Below are positions 29,270 to 59,221 of a stretch of 64,000 nt of DNA, in pieces. The notes below the pieces were generated by a model. It made no database searches. It was not told the origin of the DNA and saw nothing but the letters and a program-made list of their open reading frames with translations. The translations under genes were made by a program, and so were the position numbers. Position 1 is the first letter of the stretch. Each line of letters opens with the position of its first letter. The stretch lies in the NCBI GenBank assembly GCA_022709695.1, contig JAKLII010000010.1:62001-126000 (forward strand), given 5' to 3'. The stretch comes from Bacteroidota bacterium (GTDB lineage: Bacteria > Bacteroidota > Bacteroidia > Bacteroidales > SKPS01).

Positions 29270-30304
29270 TTAGCCTCCCAGTACTGTCCGGATACTGAAG
29301 TAGTTGGGGGCTCCGGCCAGGTGTTGTCGGCTGCGGCTGAAGTCGAACTGGTATTTTCCAAGTTTCAGTCCCAGTCCCCAGGTAAATCCGGCAAGCCCCA
29401 TTTTCGTCTGCACCCCTGATTCCTGTCGGGTGCGGTAGTCGTATCCCAGTCTGACACGGAGCAGGTTACCGGGCATCAATTCAATACCTCCGGTTACATG
29501 GCGCATGGCTTTGTCGAGAAAATCCACCGTTTTGCTCTCCTCAATCACCTTTCCGGTGATGGGATCCACCGTATAATCGGGATTCAGCGGATCGTTGTAG
29601 GTCAGGTCCCATTGATTCAGCGTATTCAGGAGGACATAGAACCGTACCGGCGCATGTTTCAGTTTACGGCTGATGCCTGCTGCTACTTCGAACGGGAGCG
29701 GCTCATTTTCATCGCCAAAGCGGATGATCTGGCGGCCCACATTCCGCACCACAAGTGAAGCGTCAAAGAGCCCCGAAGGGCTGTGGTAATGTCCTGATAC
29801 ATCAACCCCAAGGGCTACCGAAGACCACACATCGTAATCGGAAATCATCACATTGAGGGCAGCACCCATGCGGATATCCCTGAAAATGCTTCTGCCCCAC
29901 CCAGCGGTAATCACAATGTCGGATGCCGTGAAACTACCGCCGGCATTGCCGGCATCATCGGTGCGGTCGAATGTGCCATAGTTTAAGTAGCGAATCCCGC
30001 CCACAAAGCTCCCGTACCGCTCAAAAGTCCTTCCGTACACCACATTACCGGCATTGATCCCTGCGGGATAGTTGAGAAAAGTGAATCCCAGTGCATTGTG
30101 GAGATCGGTATCGATAGTGGCAGGGTTGTGCAATGCAAGAAGGACATCCTTATCCTGAAGCGGGAGAAAATTACCCCCGAAAGAGGCAACCCGTGGGGAG
30201 ACAGCGAGGTTCATCACCTGAAAAATATGATTTGAGCTGCTCTGTGCATGGAGCGTACAATTGAGGCAGAACAGGCCAGCCGCTATGATGAGGATATGCT
30301 TCAT
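29270..30304 (-). CDS. porQ: Type IX secretion system protein PorQ
   Basis: A 344-residue outer-membrane beta-barrel protein. PorQ belongs to the PorV/PorQ/PorU/PorZ attachment complex that finishes cargo processing at the cell surface. The signal peptide ends near HAQ (residue 20); the mature start SSSNHIFQVMNLAVSPRVASFGGN is the family hallmark (quoted in part: FQVMNLAVSPRVASFGG), and NPATIDTDLHNALGFTF with later GGIELMPGNLLRVRLGYDYR also fit. The length is standard. It lies among genes for T9SS cargo (M4 peptidase on one side), which supports the assignment and shows that the system is present in this organism. Confidence 0.9.
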   Translation of the reverse strand: MKHILIIAAGLFCLNCTLHAQSSSNHIFQVMNLAVSPRVASFGGNFLPLQDKDVLLALHNPATIDTDLHNALGFTFLNYPAGINAGNVVYGRTFERYGSFVGGIRYLNYGTFDRTDDAGNAGGSFTASDIVITAGWGRSIFRDIRMGAALNVMISDYDVWSSVALGVDVSGHYHSPSGLFDASLVVRNVGRQIIRFGDENEPLPFEVAAGISRKLKHAPVRFYVLLNTLNQWDLTYNDPLNPDYTVDPITGKVIEESKTVDFLDKAMRHVTGGIELMPGNLLRVRLGYDYRTRQESGVQTKMGLAGFTWGLGLKLGKYQFDFSRSRQHLAGAPNYFSIRTVLGG

Positions 30305-30400: not shown

Positions 30401-30433
30401 AAAAAAAATCCGGGAGAATTCCCATCCTCCCGG
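30401..30433 (-). terminator. Rho-independent terminator of gdhA
   Basis: On the minus strand CCGGGAG (complement of 30427-30433) pairs with CTCCCGG (complement of 30410-30416) over a 10-base loop and is followed by a run of eight Ts (complement of 30401-30408). It lies 50 bases after the gdhA stop. Confidence 0.9.
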
Positions 30434-30483: not shown

Positions 30484-31833
<1,350 letters not shown>

Positions 31834-31988: not shown

Positions 31989-32018
31989 TTTGTTGTCGGC
32001 GATAATAGCGTAATTTTG
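31989..32018 (+). promoter_or_regulatory. Promoter of the Crp/Fnr-type gene
   Basis: TTTG at 31989-31992, 18 bases, then TAATTTTG at 32011-32018: both elements at consensus. The transcript would begin near 32025. This decides the start codon: a TTG at 32016 lies inside the -7 element and so cannot be translated from this promoter. Confidence 0.75.
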
Positions 32019-32039
32019 GCAACCGAAAATTCAACCCGT

Positions 32040-33167
32040 ATGCGCCAGGAGAAAGAGCCTGAAAAGATTACCGACCTTATTGAATCGCTGACAGAGCGGC
32101 GCAAGGAGCTGAGCTGTATCTATCAGGTGAACGATCTGCTGCGGGATTATACGGTTGATCTGCAAGGGGTGTTTATAGAGCTCTCAAAGATTTTGCCTGA
32201 TGCCTGGAGGTATGCCGATATCTGCAGGGCTTGTGTGATGTATGAAGGTGAACAGTTTGAATATGAACCCTTTGTAAAAACCAAACTGAAACAGACAGCA
32301 CCCATTACCCTTGAAGATCATATCGTTGGAGAGATCCAGATTTACTATATCAAGCCGGTAACCAACGAAAAAGGGATTTTCCTGAAAGAGGAGCAGCGGT
32401 TGCTTAATACCGTTGCCGACAAACTCAGTGGCTTTATCCTGCTCAAACGGCTGAAAGAGACGGTCAACCGACAGCAGGAATCACCCGCTCCGGTTCCTCC
32501 TGATCAGCAGTACACCGTGAACAAATGGCTATCGGGGATCGGACTGACTGAAGATCAGATCATAAGGTGCACCCGTGTAAAGATCGACTTCCGCAAAGGG
32601 GAAACCATCTGCAAGCAGGGAGCTCTTAACGCCTACATCATGATTTTTGCCGAGGGGATGGCGAAGGCCTATCTCGAAGGCTATCAGGAGAAAGGGCTCA
32701 ATTTTAAGGTTATACAACCATTCGATTTAATAGGTCTTACCTCGGTGAAAGGTACCAACTGCTACCGGTACTCGGTATCCGGAATCACACCATGTAAAGT
32801 GTACCTGGTGGATAAAGAGGAGTTCCTTTCCATGGCCGCCTCCAATAGAGTGCTGCAGGAATATCTGCTGGAATTCTACTGCAACCTTGCAGGTGATATG
32901 CTGAACCGTTTGAATTGTGTGGCCAACAAACAGGCACCGGGCAGGGTGGCCGATGTGCTGCTGTACCTGGCGAATGATGTGTTTAAAAGCCCCTATATCC
33001 CCAACGTGATCAGCCGGAAAGACATCGCTGAGCTCGCAGGTATGTCCACGGAAAGTGCCGTAAGGATCCTCTCCGAGCTAAAAAGCGACGGTATCATCAA
33101 AATCGTGAAAGACGGCATCGAGCTGATCCGTCCCGAACTGATCCGTACGATCTCAATCGCAGGCTGA
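32040..33167 (+). CDS. Crp/Fnr family transcriptional regulator with N-terminal extension
   Basis: A 375-residue regulator. The first ~150 residues (ERRKELSCIYQVNDLLRD ... DKLSGFILLKRLKE) resemble a GAF-like sensor with flanking helices. A cyclic-nucleotide-binding fold follows (about 160-285: CTRVKIDFRKGETICKQG), then a winged helix-turn-helix (about 300-365: ISRKDIAELAGMSTESAVRI) typical of Crp/Fnr. There is no CxxC/C pattern clearly expected of a Fnr iron-sulfur cluster, though cysteines exist. An effector is therefore unknown. ATG at 32040 chosen over TTG at 32016, which lies in the promoter. Divergent from gdhA; a role in its control is possible but unproven. Its 3' end overlaps the convergent gene by 15 bases. 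Confidence 0.85.
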   Translation: MRQEKEPEKITDLIESLTERRKELSCIYQVNDLLRDYTVDLQGVFIELSKILPDAWRYADICRACVMYEGEQFEYEPFVKTKLKQTAPITLEDHIVGEIQIYYIKPVTNEKGIFLKEEQRLLNTVADKLSGFILLKRLKETVNRQQESPAPVPPDQQYTVNKWLSGIGLTEDQIIRCTRVKIDFRKGETICKQGALNAYIMIFAEGMAKAYLEGYQEKGLNFKVIQPFDLIGLTSVKGTNCYRYSVSGITPCKVYLVDKEEFLSMAASNRVLQEYLLEFYCNLAGDMLNRLNCVANKQAPGRVADVLLYLANDVFKSPYIPNVISRKDIAELAGMSTESAVRILSELKSDGIIKIVKDGIELIRPELIRTISIAG

Positions 33168-36140
33168 GCCAGGTTTGAACAACACTCCCCGGTTTCTTTT
33201 TCCGTCGATCCGTATCACAATTTCTTCGTCGAAACGGATATGGCGCAGAAATTCATCCTCGTACACCGATGGCATGGCATTGAGGAAATCCACATCATAA
33301 ACTCCTTCATTTATGTATGGGTTAATGGTAAAATACCCCACATGGAAAGAGGTAAGGTTCTGAAAAAAGTGTGTACCCTGACTGGGGTCGATGCGGTAGT
33401 TTTCAAGGCCGGATTCCACAATGAGCCTTGCTGCTGAGATCTGGGGCCATTTCACCGGGATACCAAGCCAGGGATCCGAGGAGCCCCAGCGGCCGGGTCC
33501 AACCAGCACAAAATTGAGTTTTTCATTGAGGAACTTCAGGTTCAGATCCCCTACCCTGTGGGCAATCTCCTGGGTGTTGGCGGGGTTAAAGGTCTCGGGC
33601 TTCACATACACCAGATCATGCAACCCTTTGATCTCGCCATTGCCCAAAGCCTGCTCCGACCACAGGATCACCTGATCAGCCTTTACTTCATCAAGATGGA
33701 TCCTGGAAGCGTCCTTATGCTCAACGATCGGCCTGATCTGCAGAAAGCTGAAAACCCGCGGCTGGCCTTTCGGTACATCGAGGTTCACCGCAAACTCAAT
33801 CTCTATCGGCTTATTCATGGCCCTCGACCCGGTAACCAGCAGGTCATGAAGGATCTCAGCCAAAGGGAACTGCTTGTGCTTCAGAATATTGGCATAGGTT
33901 ATTACCTTCTTACCCTTGTGATAGGTTCCCTCCTTTAACGTATTGTTCTGAAAGTCGTAGGTGGAAGACGCAAACTTCAATACCCCGTCAGGCTCAGCAT
34001 CGGCCACCGGACTTTTTATCAGGTTTACGGCATCGTTGGTGCTGGGATGGAAACTGGAGGCTTTCAGGTCGAGGGCGTAAAAGAACTTCTGGGTTTCGCG
34101 CAGGGCGGTTTGCGGATTGGTAAGCTGGATAATACGGTCGGGGTGTGCCGGTGAAAAACGCAGGGTAATGCCCCCGTCAACTATGTACTTGCCCAATCCC
34201 AGGGCGATGTCGGCAATGCCTTCTTCTGCCTTTTCGGGCGGTATGGGGTAGAAGTTGATACTCCGGGCTACCCCTGAAATAGTGGGGTAAAACCGCTCAT
34301 TGTACTGCTTACCGGTAACTTCCTGCAGCACAATCGCCATTTTTTCCTGGTCGATCACATTCCGTGTAGCCTCCATGTATGCTTTGGAATCCTTGTAAAA
34401 CACTGAGGCATACACGCATTTGATGGCATGGCTCAGCATCTCGATCATCAACCGCTCGTTCCGCTCCACCTTGGGAATCATAAAGGTGTTGTAAATACCC
34501 GCAAATGGCTGATAATGTGAATCCTCCAATAAACTTGATGAACGGATGGCTATCGGATTCTTCACCACATTGATAAAAGCCAGCAGATCCTCATGGATGC
34601 GATACGGAAGTCGTGCATCCACAAAAGCCTCCATTATCTGCTCATCCGACCGATCCGACATGGCGATATAATGGAGGTTGTTATCCTCCATAAAATCATC
34701 AAATACATCGGTACTCAGTACCACGGTACGGGGAATGGTAATAATGGTATCAGGGTACTTTTCCGTAAGATTATGGCGTTTCAGCATCGAATCCACAAAG
34801 GCAAGTCCGCGGGCCTTTCCTCCCAGCCCCCCTTCCCCGATGCGGGTGAAAATCAGGTACTCATCAAACCGGTCACGGTTGTAATCTGCAATGATGCCCC
34901 TCCCTTTGTTGCGCCTGAAATTCGCAATGGCATCAAAAAGAAACCGGCGTATTTCATCAAGGTCTTCAAAATCTTCGGAGTTGAGTTTCTTGAACAACTG
35001 GGCCAACGGAAACAATGCTCTGGCATTGAGCCACTTACTGAAGTGATTCCGCTTGATGTGGTACTCCAGCGAATCGTCGGGAATTTCAAAGAGTTTCTGC
35101 TGCAAAGTCTGCAGGTCGCTCCCCCGGTTGATCTCCTCCATAGTTGCCGGGTTCAGAAATACAAAGTCGCCAAACGCAAAGTATTTGATGATGAACTGTT
35201 TAAGGTCCTGTGAGAGGGTCTTGGAGTTTTTGTGCAGAAAGCCCACTTTCAGTTCACGGGCAATTTCTTCATTTTCAGCATCCGACGACTGAAGCAGGAT
35301 GGGCATAAACGGATCATCCCCCTTCACCTTCTGACTCAACAGAATACCGGCCTGTTTGAACTGCACCCCTCCCTTCTTGTAGGAGATATCGGAAATGATT
35401 CCCAACAGGTTATCCTTGTATTTGATGTAGTATTTCAACGCCTGTTCGTAGGTCTTTGCCAGAAGGATTTTTGGCCGGCCCCGCATCCTGAGCATCTTAA
35501 GGTGTTCATTCAGTCCCTCCTGCATGAACTCTTTGCTCTGATTGAAAATAATCTTGTAGATCGTGGGGAGGTAGCTGGAATAAAATCGTATTGAGTCTTC
35601 CACAAGAATGATCACCTGTACGCCCACCGCCTGCACATCATGTTCAACATTCATCTGATCCTCAATCAGTTTAATGATTGCCAGCAGAAGGTCTGCATTC
35701 CCAAGCCAGCAGAACACATGATCGACTCCGGTAAGATCCTCCTGATCAAGCTTTACCGATACTTCCCTCGAAAATGGGGTAAGTACAACAATGGGAATCT
35801 TTGGGTATCTGGCTTTGATGTCGCGGGTAAGCTGAAAAGGATCCAGATCCTGGATACTCAGCATATTGATTATCAGGTCGATTTGCCCTTCCGACAGAAT
35901 TTGGTATGCCTCCGTGGAAGAACTTGCCTGAACAAACTGGGGCGGGTACCGGAGGTTAAGCGAAACATACTCGTTGAAAATCTGCTCGTCAATCCTGCCA
36001 TCCTCCTCCAGCATAAAAGCATCGTAATTACTACAGAGAATCAATACGTTGTTGATCCTGCGGTTCATCAGTTTGTTGAAGGGGGTGTCAGCAAAGTAGA
36101 AGTCCTTCTTGATTTTTTGTATTCTGTCGGAATCGGGCAT
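33153..36140 (-). CDS. Two receiver-like domains fused to a PPDK-type ATP-binding domain
   Basis: A 995-residue protein. Residues about 28-160 and 170-330 look like two receiver-type (CheY-like) folds: the first has NVLILCSNYDAFMLEEDGRI ... DLIINMLSIQDLDPFQL ... IPIVVLTPFS, the second has VQVIILVEDSIRFYSSYLPTI and PKILLAKTYEQAL. The C-terminal two thirds carry the pyruvate-phosphate dikinase N-terminal (PEP/pyruvate-binding, ATP-grasp) domain: GEGGLGGKARGLAFVDSML, NPIAIRSSSLLEDSHYQPFAGIYNT and GPGRWGSSDPWLG. The swivelling phospho-His domain and the C-terminal PEP barrel of a real PEP synthase are absent, so it is not a standard PEP synthase. Its activity is unknown; a signalling or phosphotransfer role is inference. 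Confidence 0.75.
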   Translation of the reverse strand: MPDSDRIQKIKKDFYFADTPFNKLMNRRINNVLILCSNYDAFMLEEDGRIDEQIFNEYVSLNLRYPPQFVQASSSTEAYQILSEGQIDLIINMLSIQDLDPFQLTRDIKARYPKIPIVVLTPFSREVSVKLDQEDLTGVDHVFCWLGNADLLLAIIKLIEDQMNVEHDVQAVGVQVIILVEDSIRFYSSYLPTIYKIIFNQSKEFMQEGLNEHLKMLRMRGRPKILLAKTYEQALKYYIKYKDNLLGIISDISYKKGGVQFKQAGILLSQKVKGDDPFMPILLQSSDAENEEIARELKVGFLHKNSKTLSQDLKQFIIKYFAFGDFVFLNPATMEEINRGSDLQTLQQKLFEIPDDSLEYHIKRNHFSKWLNARALFPLAQLFKKLNSEDFEDLDEIRRFLFDAIANFRRNKGRGIIADYNRDRFDEYLIFTRIGEGGLGGKARGLAFVDSMLKRHNLTEKYPDTIITIPRTVVLSTDVFDDFMEDNNLHYIAMSDRSDEQIMEAFVDARLPYRIHEDLLAFINVVKNPIAIRSSSLLEDSHYQPFAGIYNTFMIPKVERNERLMIEMLSHAIKCVYASVFYKDSKAYMEATRNVIDQEKMAIVLQEVTGKQYNERFYPTISGVARSINFYPIPPEKAEEGIADIALGLGKYIVDGGITLRFSPAHPDRIIQLTNPQTALRETQKFFYALDLKASSFHPSTNDAVNLIKSPVADAEPDGVLKFASSTYDFQNNTLKEGTYHKGKKVITYANILKHKQFPLAEILHDLLVTGSRAMNKPIEIEFAVNLDVPKGQPRVFSFLQIRPIVEHKDASRIHLDEVKADQVILWSEQALGNGEIKGLHDLVYVKPETFNPANTQEIAHRVGDLNLKFLNEKLNFVLVGPGRWGSSDPWLGIPVKWPQISAARLIVESGLENYRIDPSQGTHFFQNLTSFHVGYFTINPYINEGVYDVDFLNAMPSVYEDEFLRHIRFDEEIVIRIDGKRNRGVLFKPGSACD

Positions 36141-36152
36141 TGTATTTAGTTG

Positions 36153-36185
36153 GGAGTTAGGAGTTAGGAGTTAGGAGTTAGGAGT
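36153..36185. repeat. GGAGTTA heptamer tandem repeat
   Basis: Four perfect copies of GGAGTTA plus GGAGT, starting 13 bases upstream of the start of the receiver/PPDK-type gene. The same unit is repeated nine times at 44745-44807. Confidence 0.9.
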
Positions 36186-36322
36186 ATAATTAATACATTG
36201 ATTAAATGACATTTAACTTGAATATTGATTTTTTTGAGCGCTGATGTAAATATACAGATTTCAACATAATCTCAACCAAAGATACCGTTACCTGTCCGGA
36301 AGCAGCCGATGGCAGATTGAGG

Positions 36323-36354
36323 CTTGCATCAGATTTCCTGCCGGAGTACTTTTA
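36323..36354 (+). promoter_or_regulatory. Promoter of candidate small RNA
   Basis: CTTG at 36323-36326, 20-base spacer, TACTTTTA at 36347-36354 (7 of 8 match to TAnnTTTG). Predicted start about 36361. Confidence 0.4.
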
Positions 36355-36360
36355 CCACGC

Positions 36361-36491
36361 AGCAACCTTTTCGTTCTTCACTTCATTCTTAGTTGTATGA
36401 GAGAGGGGCAGTGGCAACAAAACTCCTTTCGCAATGGTTTTTATGGTTATTCCGAACCGGGGGCGGTGCAAACTGCTCCCGGTTTTGTTTT
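36361..36491 (+). ncRNA. Candidate small regulatory RNA
   Basis: About 130 bases between a promoter-like sequence and a very strong terminator on the plus strand, with no plus-strand gene upstream to claim the terminator. An ATG-led frame at 36397 has no stop before the terminator, so the transcript does not look coding. The nearest genes on both sides are on the minus strand. It could act in trans, or, by its last bases, touch the 3' end of the VIT/vWA gene. Existence is inferred from promoter plus terminator only. Confidence 0.45.
36457..36491 (+). terminator. GCAA-loop hairpin terminator on the plus strand
   Basis: An 11-base-pair stem, CCGGGGGCGGT / ACTGCTCCCGG, closed by a GCAA tetraloop, with a TTTTGTTTT tail at 36483-36491. 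Two pairs are G-U wobbles, which exist only in plus-strand RNA; on the minus strand they are A-C mismatches and the tail is not T-rich. The orientation is therefore clear. It overlaps the last two bases of the VIT/vWA gene stop. Confidence 0.85.
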
Positions 36492-39400
36492 ACCGGAATT
36501 CAAAACTGCCCACATTGATCCGGGCGTCAACCTCATCCAGCCGGATGGTCACTACCTTTTGCCTGCCGTTCTGTTTTCCATAATGTGTATAAAAGGCCAG
36601 GTGGAGGTTCGAAGGTACCAGCTGATCCTGAGATGAGGATCCGTACCAATGGGCCTGAACCAGATAGGTTCCCTTAACGGCTTTACGGATCATAAACTCC
36701 TCAGGGCCAAAACCCTGTGTTACATCATGGGTAATTTTTCCTCCGGCAGCCGTAAGAGTATTGCTGTAGGAACAGGTTTCGCCGCGCGGATCAGTAACCC
36801 AGAGATCCATGTCGGAATCATCAAGATCCCATGAAAGGACCACCCGCACGTCAACCGGTTCCCTGCGGATAAGACGCTTGTCAATATCCCCCCGCGGGGT
36901 TTTCGGATGGACCGAAAGGATCTTGTTGATATCATTCATCACAATCAGTTTCAACGAGGCACACCTGAAATCCTCCTCCCCGGTGATGATTTTGTAAAGG
37001 GTCTTAACGGCCTCTCCGTATTTTCCTCCTGCCTCCAGTGCCAATCCGAGATCTCTGAGCGACTGAGGATCTTCTCCCCTGATATTCAGCACTTTTCTAA
37101 ACATAAAAATAGCTTCCTGAGGCTGCCGGTAGTCCAACAGTTTGTTGCCCAGGGTACGCAGCAACTCGGGTGACTCAAGGCCTATTTCCGCCAGATTGGA
37201 GATCACCCTGATTGCCAGTCCGGTCATCTTCTGCTGGTGGAAGTATTCAGCCACATCGTTATAAAAGGCAGGGGTGGCATTGTAGGTTTGCTTTAGCCGC
37301 AGATAGGTGTGGTACCTCTCCCCTGCCTTTGCACTGCGCAACTTTTTCAGATAGGGTGCATCCGGATTCCAGGGCTTAAGCTCAATGGAGGATGAAGCGA
37401 ATGCAGGAGGGTCGTCACTTGCGTCAGTTTCGGATGTAACGGAAAAAGTTCCCGTTGTAAAGGCCAGCGAATTGTCAACTGCCTGCACAGTAGCATTAGA
37501 ACTGGTATATGAATTCAGTGTAAACGGAACAGCAAAGCCAGCAGAAAGACGAAGGGTTTCATCCCTCCGGGCATTAGCATCCCATGTATAAGTGGTTGCT
37601 CCCTGCGGTGCGATCCCGGTATGCAATACCGAATCAGCAGTCCGGTGAACATCCGTATGAAGGGTATCAACTGGAGATGCAGGTTGCGGAACGGGTTCAG
37701 GTTCAGGTTCGGGGATCGGTGCCGGGTTAAATTCTTCATTCCACCATTCGGTTTGCTGGTCCATTTCCTTCACCAGGTTTTCGATCCGGTTTTTCACCGC
37801 TTCATCCTCAGCAGCTTCTCCCACCACCAGCAGCCGGAAATATTCAGCCTTATATTTCTTCGCCAGATCCGGAGGAGGTACTATTTTATACCGGATGTAA
37901 TCGGCAAGTTCCTCCAATACAATCAGCGAGGTAAAGGGAGTTACAAACCCGTATTGCTTTGCTGCCTCCACAATTTTAGTCCGGTTCGCCTCAGCATTCC
38001 ACAGCAGCTCCTTCAGCATCTTTCCGGCCCAGATCCGCTTCAGAAGCACCGGATCATCCTTCTTATCCGCATGCACGGTAATGTATTCGGTATGTTCAAC
38101 CTTGCTTCCGAATCCAAAATTCAACCTTATTTTCAGTGATTCGCCCTCCATAACTCCTGCCATCGACAAGGTGTGGTCAACAGGTGCTGAACCGGAAGGG
38201 AACAGCGACAATGCCATGCCATCCACAATTTCTGAAGAAATGAGGCGTAACACCCTGTGGGTCAGCTTCTCTACTACTTCTTCGATCCCGGCTTCCAACA
38301 GATTGCTACACGATCCTCCGGTGCCGGCAGACCATTGGTTCAACAGGGCATAGTCTGCCACTTTTGAAGCACACAGGGTATGAACCGGTACTTTAAATCC
38401 AGGGGTTCCTGCCTCCCGGAAATTGAAAATTCCGTCAGAAAACAGGAGCGCCTCATCACAATCCGGCGACAGCCATGCCGGATCAGGTGAAGCCGAAGCA
38501 CCGTCGTATTCCAGGGAGTCTATCCTTTGCAACAAAGCATCAGCACTTCCCTTTTGTATTCTGAATTGTTGCGCATCTTCCCTGAAAACATGGAATGGAA
38601 TCAGGGTAATCGTCACATCCTGGTATTGTTGTAGCAGTGATTTGAGGATCGATCTCTCCTTTGCGTGGTCCCGCTGATTTCCGGAGCCCGAAACATCCCA
38701 CAGCAATGTGATATGCTGCGGCTTCTTTGAGGCACCGGTGATCGCAGGTGCCGGCAAACTGATATAAAACCAGGCCGAATCGGAACGAGCAGTACCTGCA
38801 GTCCACGTCTGATAGGCCAACGGTTTGGTTGTACCAGTTACAGAGCGGTGATTTCCGGTATCCCGAAATTGCCACCATACCAGCGATCCTACTGATATTA
38901 CAGTGACTCCTGCCAGGGCTCCGGCAACCCATCTTCTACGACGATAAAACAAGAGGACTGCAATGCCTCCACCTCCCAATAATACAAGGCCCGGAATCCA
39001 TAATCCTGATATCCGGGATCTGCTAACCGGTTCTTTCCGGTTAATACCTTCTGCAGTTACAGCCGTGGGGTCTCTGGGAAGGATCAATGCCACCGAACGG
39101 TCCGGTACGTAATTCTTCTTGTCGATTTCGGCTACCAGCGACCCGTCAATCTGCCTGAAATCAAGCCCCTTCATTGCTTCAGGCGCATCGGCCGCAATTA
39201 CGGATCGTTTGATTACCTGAACCCTGAGTGCAAACCGTTCCACCTTATCTTTAATCTGAAGGGGGAGTGTATAGTAATCCTCATGCTTTCCGGGCGTGAG
39301 CTCCTGTTCCACAGTGATGGTGATCCGGCGTGTACCATTGGGGGGCAACGGGTAAATCCTTGCCCGGTAATTGTTACCAGCCGTTGCTTCCAGCAGGCCG

Positions 39401-39801
39401 GGATCCACCTTCCGCCTCACGATAGCCTCGAAAACAGCCCTCCCTTTCTCCTTTTCCACGATAACCCCATCGCGCATTTTCCCGTCGATATCAAGGGCAA
39501 ACCCCGCTACCGACTGCCCTTCCGCCAACGGGAATTCAAATGACCCTTCCAGAATCAACGGATTGTTGTTGACCCACTCCATATCCATGATGGTGATGGC
39601 TACCTGCCCAATAATCCGGATATCAACCGATAACTTCTTCAGCTTCATGGGGTTGATTTTCTGTCGATTCTGCTCTGTAACCCTGATTTGTGGAATTACA
39701 GGCACAACCGTCTGGGAGCGTGTGCCAAACGGAGAACACACCAGAACAAACAGAAAATACAACGCTGACCGGCTGCACAAATCGGAGGTAACTTTTCTCA
39801 T
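36490..39801 (-). CDS. VIT-domain, vWA-like, TPR and DUF2135 envelope protein
   Basis: A 1103-residue protein. Order: signal peptide (residues 1-29, ending SRSQ-like TRSQ), a VIT domain (about 35-170: NNPLILEGSFEFPLAEGQSV), a pair of basic-flanked hydrophobic segments (about 270-315), a vWA-like region (about 350-500) that begins ITLLWDVSGSGNQRD, so DxSxS is partly kept as D-V-S-G-S-G, a linker with many Pro/Glu, TPR-like repeats (about 835-960) and a C-terminal DUF2135-like beta domain (SWDLDDSDMDLWVTDPRGE, QAHWYGSSSQ). In eukaryotes VIT plus vWA is found in inter-alpha-trypsin inhibitors; in Bacteroidota these are uncharacterised exported or membrane proteins. Likely a surface or periplasmic scaffold. 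Confidence 0.75.
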   Translation of the reverse strand: MRKVTSDLCSRSALYFLFVLVCSPFGTRSQTVVPVIPQIRVTEQNRQKINPMKLKKLSVDIRIIGQVAITIMDMEWVNNNPLILEGSFEFPLAEGQSVAGFALDIDGKMRDGVIVEKEKGRAVFEAIVRRKVDPGLLEATAGNNYRARIYPLPPNGTRRITITVEQELTPGKHEDYYTLPLQIKDKVERFALRVQVIKRSVIAADAPEAMKGLDFRQIDGSLVAEIDKKNYVPDRSVALILPRDPTAVTAEGINRKEPVSRSRISGLWIPGLVLLGGGGIAVLLFYRRRRWVAGALAGVTVISVGSLVWWQFRDTGNHRSVTGTTKPLAYQTWTAGTARSDSAWFYISLPAPAITGASKKPQHITLLWDVSGSGNQRDHAKERSILKSLLQQYQDVTITLIPFHVFREDAQQFRIQKGSADALLQRIDSLEYDGASASPDPAWLSPDCDEALLFSDGIFNFREAGTPGFKVPVHTLCASKVADYALLNQWSAGTGGSCSNLLEAGIEEVVEKLTHRVLRLISSEIVDGMALSLFPSGSAPVDHTLSMAGVMEGESLKIRLNFGFGSKVEHTEYITVHADKKDDPVLLKRIWAGKMLKELLWNAEANRTKIVEAAKQYGFVTPFTSLIVLEELADYIRYKIVPPPDLAKKYKAEYFRLLVVGEAAEDEAVKNRIENLVKEMDQQTEWWNEEFNPAPIPEPEPEPVPQPASPVDTLHTDVHRTADSVLHTGIAPQGATTYTWDANARRDETLRLSAGFAVPFTLNSYTSSNATVQAVDNSLAFTTGTFSVTSETDASDDPPAFASSSIELKPWNPDAPYLKKLRSAKAGERYHTYLRLKQTYNATPAFYNDVAEYFHQQKMTGLAIRVISNLAEIGLESPELLRTLGNKLLDYRQPQEAIFMFRKVLNIRGEDPQSLRDLGLALEAGGKYGEAVKTLYKIITGEEDFRCASLKLIVMNDINKILSVHPKTPRGDIDKRLIRREPVDVRVVLSWDLDDSDMDLWVTDPRGETCSYSNTLTAAGGKITHDVTQGFGPEEFMIRKAVKGTYLVQAHWYGSSSQDQLVPSNLHLAFYTHYGKQNGRQKVVTIRLDEVDARINVGSFEFR

Positions 39802-59063: not shown

Positions 59064-59094
59064 CTTGATCATAAAAAAAATTATACTACCTTTG
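59064..59094 (+). promoter_or_regulatory. Promoter of the tRNA-Leu pair
   Basis: CTTG at 59064-59067, 19 bases, then TACCTTTG at 59087-59094: both elements near or at consensus with ideal spacing. Transcription would start about 59101, 37 bases before the first tRNA. Confidence 0.75.
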
Positions 59095-59137: not shown

Positions 59138-59221
59138 GCCCAGGTGGCGGAAATGGTAGACGCGCATGGTTGAGGGCCATGTTCTCGCAAGGGAGTGCAA
59201 GTTCGATTCTTGTCCTGGGCA
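59138..59221 (+). tRNA. tRNA-Leu (anticodon GAG)
   Basis: An 84-base class II tRNA with acceptor GCCCAGG/CCTGGGC and discriminator A. The anticodon stem CATGG/CCATG encloses loop TTGAGGG, giving anticodon GAG (reads CUC and CUU). A variable arm follows and the T loop GTTCGATTC is standard. CCA is not encoded, so the Cca enzyme in this window is needed. Confidence 0.95.

Follow-up and report, generated by a model that had tools for sequence, protein, structure and literature searches.

The question raised by this locus is whether the gap between two minus-strand genes carries a small RNA (sRNA) gene of its own on the plus strand, as an initial annotation of the whole 64,000-nucleotide stretch of DNA analysed here (the window) had proposed. 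The locus was compared with its counterpart in G001, a second species of the same genus and the only other genome of the family included in the comparison. The relevant G001 contig corresponds to SKPS01000305 in GTDB, from the metagenome-assembled genome (MAG) Lentimicrobiaceae bacterium CSSed162cmA_391.

The locus and its neighbours

The gap and its borders are organized as follows.

33153–36140, minus strand: gene for a PPDK_N/response-regulator receiver protein (PPDK-like gene), the divergent neighbour, common to the window and G001.
36246–36277, minus strand: divergent promoter-like site TTG-N18-TATATTTA (36254), 113 bases before gene 33153–36140; not reported in the initial annotation.
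36323–36491 including the promoter, plus strand: candidate sRNA gene of about 130 bases, in the gap between the two genes.
36490–39801, minus strand: gene for a VIT/DUF2135 (vWA-type) protein, whose stop codon adjoins the terminator of the candidate.

The gene map bears out that both flanking genes lie on the minus strand, which places the candidate in intergenic DNA and outside the UTR of any gene on its own strand. The accompanying statement that no plus-strand gene exists upstream is not literally correct, as there is one at 32016–33167. This gene sits beyond a 3-kb minus-strand gene and therefore cannot reasonably supply the terminator. A further proposal, that the sRNA touches the 3′ end of the VIT/vWA gene, holds for the window, where the two overlap by about 2 bases, but the contact is not conserved in the sister species. 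In G001 the VIT/vWA gene was not found, and the hairpin side is occupied by another open frame that ends about 300 bases away. Since the hairpin travels with the conserved block described below and not with the vWA gene, the contact is regarded as incidental.

Promoter, terminator, and internal parts

Between the two genes, the unit is made up of the following parts.

36323–36326, plus strand: −33 element CTTG, recognized from the sequence; its pattern is enriched in the non-coding DNA of the window.
36347–36354, plus strand: −7 box TACTTTTA, related to the Bacteroidota primary sigma consensus TAnnTTTG; the aligned box in G001 is TATTTTTG.
36359–36388, plus strand: conserved 5′ block GCAGCAACnTTnTCGTTCTTnACTTCnTT, largely unpaired according to pairing probabilities; proposed seed.
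36401–36430, plus strand: middle hairpin GAGAGGGG...CTCCTTTC; in G001, a hairpin of unrelated sequence occupies the same place.
36427–36449, plus strand: conserved linker TTTCGC...TTTTATGGTTA, just 5′ of the terminator.
36454–36491, plus strand: intrinsic terminator with a 14-pair stem, a GCAA loop, and TTTTGTTTT, recognized by folding and by compensatory pairs with G001.

The promoter CTTG-N20-TACTTTTA is present upstream, at 36323–36354, as the initial annotation had described. Its −7 box deviates by one base from TAnnTTTG, the −7 consensus of the Bacteroidota (PMC7366714; in line with PMC9723704), and the aligned G001 box matches it perfectly, so that a TAnnTTTG-type promoter is found. The −33 TTG is not evident in the G001 unit, which counts against the sRNA reading. 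Counting both strands, the window has 10 matches to TTG-N18-22-TAnnTTTR, compared with 5.1 ± 1.5 in simulated sequence, and 8 of the 10 fall in the non-coding part, which makes up 9.7% of the window. Another match, CTTG-N19-TACCTTTG at 59087, is near-identical to the sRNA promoter and lies 51 bases before a tRNA pair at 59138; a spurious frame is the sole reason that it was tallied as coding. Given the non-coding enrichment and the match at the tRNA pair, the pattern is taken to mark promoters in the source genome. The segment 59087–59335, with its canonical promoter and tRNA pair, serves as a local reference for promoter calls. Transcription of the sRNA is inferred to start at about 36358–36361.

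At the opposite end, the hairpin extends over 36454–36485 and is followed by TTTTGTTTT at 36483–36491. The initial annotation was right about the hairpin and its GCAA loop, while the 11-bp stem it described is the core of a full stem of 14 pairs; this core carries two of the three G-U pairs of the full stem, in agreement with the two wobbles counted. The assignment of the hairpin to the plus strand also holds: the plus-strand fold reaches −26.3 kcal/mol (z −5.35, 0 of 200 shuffles) against −15.2 kcal/mol for the minus strand, on which no T run follows the stem. Among 21 terminator-like sites in the surrounding 13 kb, this stem is the longest. The G001 terminator is of similar kind (−27.3 kcal/mol, z −5.05, followed by T8), and three two-sided changes between the two stems keep the pairing (C-G to G-C, G-C to C-G, and U-A to C-G). 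A rho-independent terminator thus closes the 3′ end of the candidate sRNA in both species.

Elsewhere in the window, a strong minus-strand terminator with a 10-pair stem and ATTTTTTTTG was observed at 30410–30433, downstream of the glutamate-dehydrogenase-like gene 30484–31821.

Outside the terminator, the RNA of the window folds no better than its shuffled versions (z 0.5), and the predicted middle folds of the window and G001 are only loosely alike; both points count against the sRNA reading.

Conservation in the sister species

A homologous unit is present in G001 upstream of, and divergent from, its copy of the PPDK-like gene, whose product is 80% identical at the amino-acid level. When the intergenic regions of the two genomes are aligned locally, the score is 71, whereas 1000 dinucleotide shuffles reach no more than 50; omitting the hairpin gives 63, against a shuffled maximum of 39. 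Kept in the same order in both genomes are the −7 box, GCAGCAACnTTnTCGTTCTTnACTTCnTT (25 of 30 positions identical), TTTCGC, TTTTATGGTTA (11/11), and the terminator. The pyrimidine-rich 5′ block is the most conserved part of the RNA. Between the conserved parts the sequence has changed freely, yet a middle hairpin is predicted for both RNAs. A check for loss of the hairpin and the −7 box in close relatives showed that G001 retains both, in the same order and orientation, the former with compensatory stem changes and the latter with a perfect match to the consensus. The independent sRNA proposed by the initial annotation is thus supported by order, orientation, and signals kept in one independent genome. 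Because the same arrangement has persisted in the sister species despite much sequence change, a free-standing regulatory RNA is very probable.

Distribution

The source genome holds one copy of the element. BLAST with the window element misses the homologous unit in G001. Run across 295 genomes of the order, this query returns a single 26-base match, in a coding-like region of genome G213, which was taken as chance. The reciprocal search with the G001 element gives only short low-complexity matches and misses the window copy as well, so BLAST is evidently blind at the divergence found within the genus. A covariance model was built from the two copies and run on 393 genomes of the order and 395 of the class. 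Apart from the copies already known, these genomes gave nothing credible, with scores at chance level; the best outside match (L090, E 2e-6) combines the end of a coding frame with a terminator and was rejected, and the majority of the remainder overlap open frames. An exact search for CAGCAACNTTNTCGTTCTT over the approximately 85,000 species of GTDB yielded 45 matching stretches; among the matches listed, only that of the sister species has a −7 box and a terminator. Likewise, more distant relatives show no such unit ahead of the PPDK-like gene, among the regions listed.

No Rfam family matches the sRNA locus at gathering score or at E ≤ 5. At the divergence seen within the genus, the covariance model and BLAST have little power, so their negative results outside it are to be read as not detectable rather than as shown absent. 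The unit is known from two genomes only, which counts against the sRNA reading. The description that best fits the sequence comparisons is that of a genus-restricted, intergenic sRNA.

Alternative readings

Taken together, the sequence evidence makes it likely that the locus is a standalone, non-coding sRNA gene on the plus strand with its own promoter and terminator, the RNA probably acting in trans through its 5′ block. Several other explanations must be weighed against this one. That the hairpin is simply the terminator of the vWA gene, or of background antisense transcription, with the conserved patches being regulatory DNA of the divergent PPDK-like gene, is unlikely. The hairpin does adjoin the stop codon of the vWA gene, and in G001 a short T run also follows it on the reverse strand, but in the window the T run and the G-U pairs fix it to the plus strand. 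In addition, the far-side neighbour differs in G001 while the hairpin stays with the conserved block, which argues that it is not the terminator of the vWA gene. The conserved patches are enclosed by a −7 box and a terminator, and the promoter predicted for the PPDK-like gene, at 36254, separates them from that gene. The same neighbours would be the targets if the transcript acted in cis, as an antisense RNA or a transcription-interference unit, either on the 3′ end of the vWA gene or on the divergent PPDK-like gene. Such action is considered decidedly unlikely: the sRNA touches the vWA stop codon in the window, and both species have it in the gap next to the PPDK-like gene, but the vWA overlap amounts to about 2 bases and is absent in G001, and the pairing predicted for the PPDK-like mRNA at its start region is unremarkable (−8.0 kcal/mol, with 58% of shuffles as good).

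Neither strand is regarded as coding. The ATG-led frame that the initial annotation had dismissed starts at 36398 and runs for about 78 codons through the terminator; its counterpart in G001 ends with TGA after 8 codons, and no start-to-stop frame is conserved in both species. A very small protein on either strand is rejected as very improbable. What speaks for one is a minus-strand frame of the form TIKxxAK...KN(E/D)xVAA in both genomes, together with three changes in the 5′ block that share one codon phase. Within the window, however, this frame lacks an ATG, and its end points differ between the two species. Of the three changes in its best block, two are non-synonymous, no codon phase is seen in the second conserved block, and the blocks are set off from one another by one-base gaps; a 38-aa frame in G001 matches no Pfam family. 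A different role altogether would be that of the 6S RNA of this lineage, missed by current models. In the source genome (G000, estimated 98% complete), neither the 6S model RF00013 nor the Bacteroidales-1 model RF01693 finds a match, so that the 6S RNA of the lineage is either lost or unrecognized, and the G001 fold consists of a closing stem, a large one-sided loop, and an apical hairpin. Identity with 6S is nevertheless extremely improbable, since without its terminator the RNA is only about 95 bases long whereas the models span 179–187 positions, the window sequence does not take a G001-like fold with confidence, and Rfam gives no match up to E 5. Just as improbable is the broader idea that a lineage-restricted RNA has taken a global role here, for example as the missing 6S-type RNA polymerase regulator of this Lentimicrobiaceae-related genus, with a fold unlike the 6S models.

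Proposed action and relation to known RNAs

In the preferred reading of a standalone sRNA, RNA polymerase carrying the primary sigma factor of the Bacteroidota would start at about 36358 from the promoter at 36323–36354, make about 130 bases, and stop at the intrinsic terminator at 36454–36491. The 5′ block would then most likely pair with one or more mRNAs at their start regions, altering their translation or stability. In GibS from Bacteroides thetaiotaomicron, which has the proven targets BT_0771 and BT_3893 (PMC7366714), and in FopS, a single-stranded 5′ seed pairs with mRNA start regions (PMC7366714, PMC11697453). Because the layout of the 5′ end matches this seed logic, action in trans through the unstructured 5′ end is probable. 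Target prediction on the genes of the window gave none that was significant after counting the genes tested. The best duplexes involve a spurious frame and gene 29270–30304; the start region of the G001 orthologue of the latter shows no evident match by eye. As this candidate lacks evident conservation in G001, no target is claimed.

GibS resembles the candidate in being intergenic, with its own promoter and intrinsic terminator and a conserved unpaired seed in the 5′ part (PMC7366714); no sequence relation between them was found in the Rfam searches. The FopS family of paralogous sRNAs likewise combines a canonical sigma-ABfr promoter with a single-stranded 5′ stretch followed by a terminator hairpin. 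FopS RNAs are about 65–70 nt long and multicopy (PMC11697453), whereas the candidate measures about 130 nt, has a middle hairpin, and occurs once in its genome; the locus has no Rfam match, although the Rfam copy used may not include a FopS model. Like the candidate, Rfp18 of Flavobacterium psychrophilum is a standalone sRNA with conservation across the species of its genus; it differs in its strong structure and in having a stem-loop as the site predicted to pair (PMC9723704). Bacteroidales-1 (RF01693) and 6S (RF00013) are bacterial non-coding RNAs of comparable order of size, with no match at the locus or elsewhere in the genome.

The candidate is an ordinary kind of bacterial sRNA, a fresh member of an established class, and leaves the picture of sRNA action in the Bacteroidota unchanged. 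If transcribed, it would be an undescribed sRNA from an uncultured part of the Bacteroidales for which, as far as the searches show, none is catalogued. It would also exemplify an sRNA first spotted in raw sequence from promoter and terminator signals, with later support from one sister genome.

The divergent PPDK-like gene

The fusion of PPDK_N to a response-regulator receiver (33153–36140) is widespread in the order, being present in 91 of 99 genomes. A paralogue, roughly 37% identical, occurs in many genomes including the source genome. Immediately before the start codon of the PPDK-like gene, at 36150–36186, lies a short tandem repeat of about five copies of GGAGTTA, and the corresponding gap in G001 carries another heptamer array, of the GTGAACG type (L004:162–243).
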